From the NCBI GenBank assembly GCA_030608465.1, contig JAUWEC010000003.1:1-46941 (forward strand): DNA of 46,941 nt, given 5' to 3'. Source of the DNA: Chloroflexota bacterium (GTDB lineage: Bacteria; Chloroflexota; Anaerolineae; Anaerolineales; UBA11858). Position 1 is the first letter of the stretch, and each line of letters begins with the position of its first letter. Positions 2,428 to 4,095 of this stretch are shown here, piece by piece. The notes beneath the pieces are model-generated. The model worked only from the letters and a program-made list of their open reading frames with translations, had not been told where the DNA came from and ran no database searches. Made by a program: the position numbers and the translations under genes.

Positions 2428-2452
2428 AGTTCAACTCCTGTTAGACCGGATG

Positions 2453-2466
2453 GATAGTTTACTATC
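2453..2466. promoter_or_regulatory. 14-bp palindrome GATAGT-TT-ACTATC upstream of glmS start (possible operator)
   Basis: Perfect dyad symmetry about 26 bp upstream of the glmS ATG; the loop is too short for an RNA hairpin. Confidence 0.3.
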
Positions 2467-2647
2467 TATGAGGTTTGTTCTGCCGTCCGGGTTTGAATTT
2501 TCGCAGCGGCTTTATTTTACCATTCAGAGCTGCTTTGTATCGTTATGATATACTTATTGCTACATTATTAGGTAATGGTAGGGCATAATTCTAGAAGGAC
2601 GCACAGGGGATGAGAAGCCTGCGCCAATCATCGCCTTACGAATAGTA

Positions 2648-2675
2648 TTGACAAGCTGTATTTTTCATATATACT
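2648..2675 (+). promoter_or_regulatory. sigma70-type promoter driving the ncRNA upstream of the Abi gene
   Basis: TTGACA (2648-2653), 16-bp spacer, TATACT (2670-2675). Confidence 0.7.
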
Positions 2676-2681
2676 GAAAGC

Positions 2682-2739
2682 AGTATACCCGCCAGGCCTC
2701 TGTCCTTCTGGACACGCTCAACTGTGGCGGGTTTTTTTT
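2682..2739 (+). ncRNA. putative AbiF-associated structured ncRNA (candidate RNA antitoxin) with terminator-like 3' end
   Basis: CCCGCCA (2688-2694) pairs perfectly with TGGCGGG (2725-2731), extendable by A2687-T2732; inner hairpin TGTCC-TTCT-GGACA (2701-2714); CAGT 2681-2684 complementary to ACTG 2721-2724 (possible pseudoknot); T8 at 2732-2739; strong promoter just upstream; lies directly before an Abi_2-type gene. Confidence 0.65.
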
Positions 2740-2754
2740 ATGACAAAAGGTTGC

Positions 2755-3651
2755 ATGAAATACACCAAACCGGCCCTCTCTTTTGTAGAACAGGCGCAAC
2801 GTTTACTTGACCGTGGATTGATTGCTCCAGACAAAGAAACGTTGGTAAGGCTATTGAGTGTTGTTAATTATTATCGTTTAAGCGCGTATTGGTATCCTTT
2901 TAGGCATATTGACCCTGTTACAGGGAAGGAATATTTTGATTCCGGCACGAAGTATGAGATTATTTGGCGACGGTATACTTTTGACCGCCGCTTACGTTTG
3001 CTTGTGATGGATGCTATTGAGCATATCGAAGTGGCGATTCTTCGCACAAAAATGGTTGAGAATTTCACTTTGGAGCATGGTCCGTTTGGGTATTGCAAAC
3101 AATCCAACTTTAAAGCCGGACTTGACCATGGTCGTTTAATGAGGGAGACAGAAAATGCGGTTGAGCGAAGCAATGAAAAATTCGTACAACGTTTTTTCAA
3201 CAAATACACCAGTGAACCGCGCTTACCGCTCTGGATGGCTGCCGAGGTGATGACTTTCGGGCAATTATTTACATTCTTTCGTTTCTTGCATTTCAAAGAG
3301 AAACAACACTTGGCTAGGACATTCGGTTTATATCCACCCGTATTCGAATCCTGGTTACATACCTTGAATTTCACCCGAAATACCTGTGCCCATCACGCTC
3401 GATTGTGGAACCGCGAAATCCCTATCCGGCCAAAAATACCAAAAAATCTTCCTGAGTGGCATGACCCCGTGAGGATTAACAACCAGCGTGTGTTTGCTAT
3501 ATTGACTATGTTGAAATATTTACTTTCTTACATTGCACCCCAGACTGATTGGAGTAGGCGTTTGTTGAGCTTGCTGGATGAATATGATGATATTCCTCTT
3601 AGAAATATGGGTTTCCCTGATAATTGGCAAGAGAGCACTTTGTGGAACTAG
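2755..3651 (+). CDS. Abi family (Abi_2 / AbiD-AbiF-type) HEPN protein; ORF extends to 2740 but ATG 2755 is preferred
   Basis: MKYTKPALSFVEQAQRLLDRGL start and VVNYYRLSAYWYPFR typical of Abi_2; HEPN RX4H motif RNTCAH at 3376-3393 followed by HARLWNRE; AAAAGG upstream of ATG 2755. Confidence 0.88.
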   Translation: MKYTKPALSFVEQAQRLLDRGLIAPDKETLVRLLSVVNYYRLSAYWYPFRHIDPVTGKEYFDSGTKYEIIWRRYTFDRRLRLLVMDAIEHIEVAILRTKMVENFTLEHGPFGYCKQSNFKAGLDHGRLMRETENAVERSNEKFVQRFFNKYTSEPRLPLWMAAEVMTFGQLFTFFRFLHFKEKQHLARTFGLYPPVFESWLHTLNFTRNTCAHHARLWNREIPIRPKIPKNLPEWHDPVRINNQRVFAILTMLKYLLSYIAPQTDWSRRLLSLLDEYDDIPLRNMGFPDNWQESTLWN

Positions 3652-3664
3652 AAAAGCGAGTTTA

Positions 3665-3697
3665 AAGTGCGATGCACCTTATATGTGCAGCACACTT
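3665..3697 (+). other. hairpin with internal loop downstream of the Abi gene
   Basis: AAGTG-CGA-TGCAC-CTTATAT-GTGCA-GCA-CACTT: two 5-bp stems with a 3x3 internal loop; no U tract. Confidence 0.45.
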
Positions 3698-3774
3698 GAA
3701 TTGATTAAAGTCAGCAATAATCAATGATAAAATTCAAGTAAAATTTCCAGTTTCCAAATGAGAAGGAATTATAT

Positions 3775-4095
3775 ATGACAGACAAAATTTCATCGGATGT
3801 ATTTAAACGGCTAGTTGATCTTGCTTCCCTGGAGCTTCCGGAAGGAGAAGGTGAATACCTGCGGAAGGAATTAAACAATCAGATGGTCTCTATTGAGGTT
3901 CTGGAGTCAATTCCTATTGATGCAGAAACAGGGACTGCAGCCCATGGTGTTCCTTATACAGAAATGAACAGCCCTGTTCCCCGGGAAGATGTTTCCCGCC
4001 AGGATCCACACCGGGAAGATATCCTGAAACAGGCGCCGGAACTTGAAGATGGATATATCGTGGTTCCGGATATATCCCATGAGGAGCTGTATTAA
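3775..4095 (+). CDS. gatC: Asp-tRNA(Asn)/Glu-tRNA(Gln) amidotransferase subunit C
   Basis: Small protein directly upstream of gatA; ISSDVFKRLVDLASLELPEGE... and VSRQDPHREDILKQAPELEDGYIVVP typical of GatC. Confidence 0.85.
   Translation: MTDKISSDVFKRLVDLASLELPEGEGEYLRKELNNQMVSIEVLESIPIDAETGTAAHGVPYTEMNSPVPREDVSRQDPHREDILKQAPELEDGYIVVPDISHEELY

Follow-up and report, generated by a model that had tools for sequence, protein, structure and literature searches.

The window is a 46,941-nt stretch of contig JAUWEC010000003.1 from an uncultured Chloroflexota bacterium of the class Anaerolineae (assembly GCA_030608465.1). At positions 2648-3651 it contains, read 5' to 3', a promoter, a structured RNA, a U8 tract, and an Abi_2/AbiF HEPN gene. 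An original prediction, made from the letters of the DNA, had called this locus an RNA-antitoxin/HEPN-toxin module with a solitary gene in a Chloroflexota-like genome. The genome is akin to named Anaerolineae/Chloroflexi metagenome-assembled genomes (MAGs), in agreement with that placement. The gene is indeed solitary: the assembly (2.75 Mb, 86% complete) contains no second Abi_2 gene and no second strong RNA match. The parts of the locus are given below, with the evidence for each in parentheses.

2648..2675, + strand: sigma-70-type promoter TTGACA-N16-TATACT, with TTGACA at 2648-2653, a 16-nt spacer, and TATACT at 2670-2675 (position relative to the RNA kept in relatives)
2682..2739, + strand: abiF-type RNA, an antitoxin candidate with its own terminator, about 58 nt (fold, clade model, covariation)
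2687..2694, + strand: closing stem of 8 bp, 5' arm ACCCGCCA, pairing with 2725-2732 (fold; pairs covary in relatives)
2688..2732, + strand: core match to Rfam RF03085 abiF RNA (30.5 bits against a gathering score of 37)
2695-2697/2716-2718, + strand: 3-bp stem (fold)
2698-2700, + strand: 5' bulge CUC (fold)
2701..2714, + strand: distal hairpin TGTCC-TTCT-GGACA, with TGTCC at 2701-2705 and GGACA at 2710-2714 (fold; four of five pairs with compensatory changes)
2719-2724, + strand: 3' bulge CAACUG (fold)
2732..2739, + strand: U8 tract of the intrinsic terminator (sequence; U-rich tract in related RNAs)
2745..2750, + strand: Shine-Dalgarno-like AAAAGG before the likely start, ATG 2755 (sequence; start common to relatives)
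2755..3651, + strand: AbiF/Abi_2 HEPN protein of 298 aa; the open reading frame (ORF) opens at 2740 with 303 aa (PF07751, PADLOC AbiD, PDB 8vz6)
3376..3393, + strand: HEPN catalytic motif RNTCAH, R208 and H213 of the 298 aa, R213 and H218 of the 303-aa ORF (aligned with PbAbiF R210/H215)

The promoter match is 11/12, and only two such matches occur in the 46.9-kb window, one on each strand. The distance from the end of the -10 box to the start of the RNA model is 10 nt in 21 of the 30 relatives with a good promoter. Because this spacing is conserved and 11/12 matches are rare in the window, the promoter is not a chance match. The 5' end of the RNA is placed, by inference, about 7 nt beyond the -10 box. 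CCCGCCA (2688-2694) begins 12 nt after TATACT, and its partner TGGCGGG is at 2725-2731. The promoter, a distance of about 12 nt to the RNA, and a U8 tract ending one base before the ORF had all been read correctly from the letters.

The RNA is compact. Positions 2681-2740 fold at -23.6 kcal/mol (z = -3.5 versus shuffles), and the sequence and fold contain both the CCCGCCA/TGGCGGG closing stem and the TGTCC/GGACA hairpin that had been proposed. The terminator had been described as a separate part; it is instead made up of the closing stem and U8 of the RNA itself. The proposed length of about 60 nt stands, but it is typical of the clade and not special to this RNA.

The RNA was compared with the Rfam abiF model. 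A cmscan of a 1.4-kb stretch retrieved RF03085 at 30.5 bits (E = 0.0039), which supports the expected match but falls under the gathering score of 37. At the gathering threshold the whole window gave no Rfam match; abiF appeared only in E-value mode on the short stretch. An RF03085 search of the whole of the bacterium's own genome gave no match anywhere and is uninformative. Orthologous RNAs of the same layout stand in the same place, upstream of proteins that are 60 to 71% identical; those of five relatives score 37.0 to 37.8 bits, and the orthologues as a whole 36.9 to 37.8. The shortfall of the window RNA therefore looks like lineage drift. It is apparently due to G2695, which forms a G-U pair, and to C2722 in the bulge. 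The clade model R1 scores the window RNA at 78 bits, with the window among its 12 training sequences. Other Rfam matches (GadY, suhB, and rli40) were far below threshold and were rejected. Extra RNA matches in the same genome (22.5 bits or less, 32 to 33 nt) were truncated and were not counted; the stretch around the best of them (L215) contained nothing abiF-like.

The RNA is conserved well beyond this genome. An alignment of 12 order-level RNAs was made into a covariance model, which was then applied to 80 named relatives spanning more than 10 phyla. In the alignment 98% of cells are paired and six pairs carry double changes, while controls with slid partners are 21 to 49% paired. The model, which was trained on the window's clade and with alignments fitted to its structure, found an RNA upstream of an Abi_2 gene in 68 of the 80 relatives, mostly 2 to 70 nt from the matched protein start. 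The 64 distinct RNAs contain 91 double-change cells versus 18 in shuffles (score 0.276 versus 0.079; slid controls, 15 or fewer), in an alignment whose fit to the model favors the structure. Covariation in homologous upstream regions is thus strong in both alignments, as the prediction would have it. Behind the closing stem, 68 of 72 related RNAs have a U-rich tract (at least 6 T in 8). For this reason, a single structure in this clade forms both the putative antitoxin RNA and its predicted terminator. The unpaired stretches CCUCU and GCUCAA/GCGCA are kept across phyla; the distal hairpin differs between relatives.

These data bear on two other explanations. The RNA could be a cis-only attenuator, a leader terminator that limits abiF expression and may sense a signal but neither binds nor inhibits the protein. 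It does terminate just ahead of the gene, and the Clostridioides difficile RNA also reduces expression by premature termination (PMC12373285). An attenuator would not need the unpaired stretches that are conserved across phyla, and direct binding and inhibition in trans have been shown for the C. difficile relative, so we consider this explanation unlikely. The RNA could also direct AbiF to a target RNA, in an RNA-guided defense like that of ancestral Cas13. The variable distal hairpin would suit such a role. That part is a covarying, base-paired hairpin and not a free guide, there is no spacer-repeat array at the locus, and PMC12737573 reports that AbiFr inhibits rather than guides. The protein contains one HEPN motif in 298 aa, which places it outside Cas13 (type VI), where a single protein carries two HEPN domains and is accompanied by a CRISPR array. 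A guide function is scarcely credible here.

Several relatives carry other forms of the RNA. A Kiritimatiellae MAG (L057 52-303, SKVN01000030.1) contains three abiF RNAs with differing stems, repeated in tandem every 99 nt before one Abi_2 gene; the array begins near the contig end, and further copies are possible. Two further loci (L089 and L095) contain two copies each. Divergent abiF-like RNAs are upstream of Abi_2 in L015 (1331-1384), L017 (1329-1383), and L019 (2155-2207). The RF03085 model, which misses them even at E = 1, seems too narrow.

The protein is a full-length relative of AbiF. It matches PF07751 (Abi_2) at E = 5e-53 and 180.5 bits against a curated cutoff of 25.6, as the prediction had anticipated for such a search, and Abi_2 matches were the only ones in Pfam. 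PADLOC assigns it to AbiD (9e-75). PDB 8vz6, the sole solved relative found by sequence, matches end to end (E = 3e-49 over residues 8-302); it is the PbAbiF-noncoding RNA complex according to PMC12737573, where PbAbiF is reported as an RNase. Changing R210/H215 inactivates PbAbiF, as stated in PMC12373285. The equivalent R208 and H213, together with N209 and A212, are invariant in nine relatives. The description as a HEPN-motif Abi_2 ORF therefore holds, except for its start: relatives begin MKYTKP/MHYTKP exactly at ATG 2755, so translation likely starts there and not at ATG 2740.

A decayed or domesticated module was also considered, in which the protein would be nontoxic and either serve as a housekeeping RNase or drift. 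The module is a single copy in a MAG and lies outside a defense island, its RNA is slightly off consensus, and a related copy in genome G367 lacks about 35 N-terminal residues. The ORF here is full length, has lost no invariant residue of the alignment, and retains the HEPN motif, and the promoter, RNA pairs, and U8 are intact. Decay is very unlikely.

We conclude that the locus is very probably an RNA-controlled AbiF toxin-antitoxin module in which a short folded RNA restrains an RNA-cutting AbiF. This agrees with the original prediction and draws on the abiF RNA match, the alignment with the PbAbiF complex, and the upstream covariation. Toxicity, RNA binding and inhibition, expression by read-through, the trigger, and antiphage defense would follow by analogy with relatives. 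Some results weigh against this conclusion. The RNA is below the Rfam gathering score, and the 68-of-80 count comes from a model of the window's own clade. The locus has a single RNA copy (no repeat array was found there), in contrast to the repeated ToxIN-type antitoxins and C. difficile RCd22. A consensus terminator scan did not list the terminator of the RNA, because the RNA loop exceeds the 8-nt limit of the scan.

The module would work as follows. RNA polymerase would start at about 2682 and mostly stop at 2739, where the closing stem and U8 would act as the terminator. The antitoxin RNA would be in excess because most transcription would end at that point. Occasional read-through would give a longer transcript, from which AbiF would be translated from 2755. 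Two AbiF protomers would assemble into a HEPN dimer whose interface contains R208/H213. Each protomer would bind one RNA by its folded stem and by the CUC and CAA bulges, which are conserved and unpaired, and the ribonuclease would stay silent. Phage infection may disturb this balance, upon which free AbiF would cut RNA and growth would stop. With antitoxin and terminator in one structure, the neutralizing fold would also set the amount of toxin.

The module lies in DNA that sister genomes do not have. Its surroundings are as follows.

619-2427, - strand: glmS (Pfam of flanking genes)
2430..3717, no strand assigned: extra DNA between glmS and gatC (not present in four sister genomes)
3775-4095, + strand: gatC, followed by gatA (Pfam of flanking genes)

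The gap between glmS and gatC, taken from matched coordinates, is about 195 to 260 bp in sister genomes G462, G448, G427, and G529 versus 1,347 bp here. The module was inserted in this lineage. A genome of the same genus (G535) encodes a 71%-identical protein at another site, among MmeI/Eco57I-type methylases, a helicase with a T5orf172 domain, and an Mrr-type endonuclease (L051 781-10786). DNA similarity to that copy runs only from promoter to stop (query 348-1353, window 2647-3652). Because the shared DNA is limited in this way and the site is empty in four sister genomes, the promoter, RNA, and gene seem to travel as one unit. The GC content of the AbiF coding sequence is 42.7% versus about 50% for glmS and gatA.

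RNAs of the same kind were retrieved from phages, mostly with no toxin gene. A strict RNA pattern matched at least 120 stretches of IMG/VR. A control pattern with both loop motifs scrambled and the closing stem intact gave no IMG/VR match. Abi_2 was missing from 79 of 81 viral loci (L133 and L222-L301; hidden Markov model of relatives, six frames), and 74 of those 79 have more than 900 nt downstream. The other two (L253 and L286) have Abi_2 directly behind the RNA. PF07751 was found in none of 50 whole records, which comprise nine complete isolated phages and 41 viral contigs that are possibly fragments. A single-sequence AbiF protein query gave no match in the viral contigs, but an alignment query did, and BLAST of the window RNA against phages gave short chance matches only. 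One viral contig (L293 9280-9452) contains two toxin-less abiF RNAs that are 82 nt apart.

The abiF RNA was detected at the Rfam gathering threshold in Synechococcus phages S-SZBM1 and S-CREM1, Aeromonas phages T7-Ah, PZL-Ah8, and PT2, Salicola phage CGphi29, Rhizobium phage RHEph21, and viral contig L133. Rhizobium phage Pasto and Pseudanabaena phage Pan2 matched model R2 only. Caulobacter phage RW (L351) gave a BLAST match that was rejected, with no abiF RNA by Rfam or R2. A pattern match in genome G295 (L354) was taken as chance; it is GC-rich and has neither a U-tract nor Abi_2. Pairing is kept through double changes in 70 RNAs from the window and viruses (50 cells versus 9 in shuffles), although the pattern preset most of the contigs' closing stem, the alignment is a fitted one, and the set includes near-identical contigs.

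The positions of the phage RNAs vary. The three Aeromonas phages have it between the head-tail connector and capsid assembly genes. In PZL-Ah8 (L342 2975-3047, MZ851152.1) it directly follows CTGACTATAGGGATA, which by eye resembles a T7-type phage promoter. The Rhizobium phage RNAs are upstream of the major capsid gene, with a tRNA in between in RHEph21. Those of cyanophages are within tRNA clusters. In viral contigs the RNA is near terminase, portal, major head, or other genes, and in 37 of 52 it is behind an ORF stop codon at a median gap of 27 nt. Over 49 nt, the Aeromonas phage RNA shares 90% identity with an RNA before a genuine Abi_2 gene on plasmid pT75-VIM (L355 2503-3541, CP113227.1), where RNA and gene lie in a type I restriction operon, flanked by its M and S genes. 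The L133 RNA is of the window's Anaerolineae type and scores 71.3 bits with the clade model. No relative of the L133 metallophosphoesterase was found among 199 genomes from the class to which the window belongs.

A cis-only attenuator would not be carried by phages with no gene behind it. We lean modestly toward the reading that toxin-less abiF RNAs, often placed in structural-gene operons or tRNA clusters, serve phages (lytic T7-like phages and cyanophages among them) as decoy antitoxins that silence host AbiF during infection. They would then be an RNA-based counter-defense to AbiF systems such as the window module. This is the simplest reading, and it resembles the ToxI mimicry in PhiTE (PMC3475682). 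One alternative is a terminator that converged on the same sequence. It would leave the conserved bulges unexplained; the pattern itself demanded the bulges, though the isolated phages (L342-L350) were found by BLAST and Rfam and not by the pattern. Other alternatives are that phages which formerly carried AbiF protect themselves in this way, or that host AbiF is exploited to cut phage transcripts. The cyanophage abiF RNA is mentioned in the accessible text of the S-CREM1 paper (PMC9964418) and of a review (PMC12197685). The decoy explanation was not found in those texts, and other literature may contain it. If phage RNAs are decoys, AbiF would exert real selection on phages in nature. These RNAs would also offer natural AbiF inhibitors that are ready to hand, and the natural role of AbiF would be directly testable with laboratory phages. 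We judge the phage RNAs to matter more than the window locus itself.

The kind of system is already known from AbiF-AbiFr and C. difficile AbiF-RCd22, and the window locus is a further member. It extends a recently recognized kind of RNA-controlled toxin that is related to the ancestor of Cas13. Like AbiF-AbiFr (PbAbiF, PDB 8vz6), the locus has a full-length homologous protein, the same catalytic R/H, and a putative RNA partner. Its protein is distant in sequence and from another phylum, and its activity is presumed from that relative. In C. difficile, AbiF is toxic, and its abiF RNA neutralizes it in cis and in trans by direct binding; the two are cotranscribed with a terminator in between (PMC12373285). 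That system shares the promoter, abiF-motif RNA, terminator, and Abi_2 gene, with RNQCAH there and RNTCAH in the window. RCd22 has two abiF motifs and a separate terminator in 98 to 132 nt, whereas the window RNA has one motif, and its closing stem is the terminator, in about 58 nt. The C. difficile system is prophage-borne, and the window module is a chromosomal insertion. The nested stems and conserved unpaired letters of Rfam RF03085 are also in the window RNA, which differs in its lower score and longer distal hairpin; in it and its clade, the 3' bulge is followed by an additional base. The type III systems ToxIN, AbiQ, and CptIN share the order of promoter, RNA, terminator, and endoribonuclease, and presumably the logic. 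Judged by sequence, the window protein is HEPN (Abi_2) and not of the ToxN fold, and its RNA has no tandem pseudoknot array. The phage abiF RNAs resemble the pseudo-ToxI of PhiTE (PMC3475682), where a phage with no toxin gene carries a bacterial antitoxin RNA in copy. That mimicry was seen in escape mutants against ToxIN, whereas the abiF-type RNAs, with their putative decoy role, are natural, widespread, and toxin-less in many phages.
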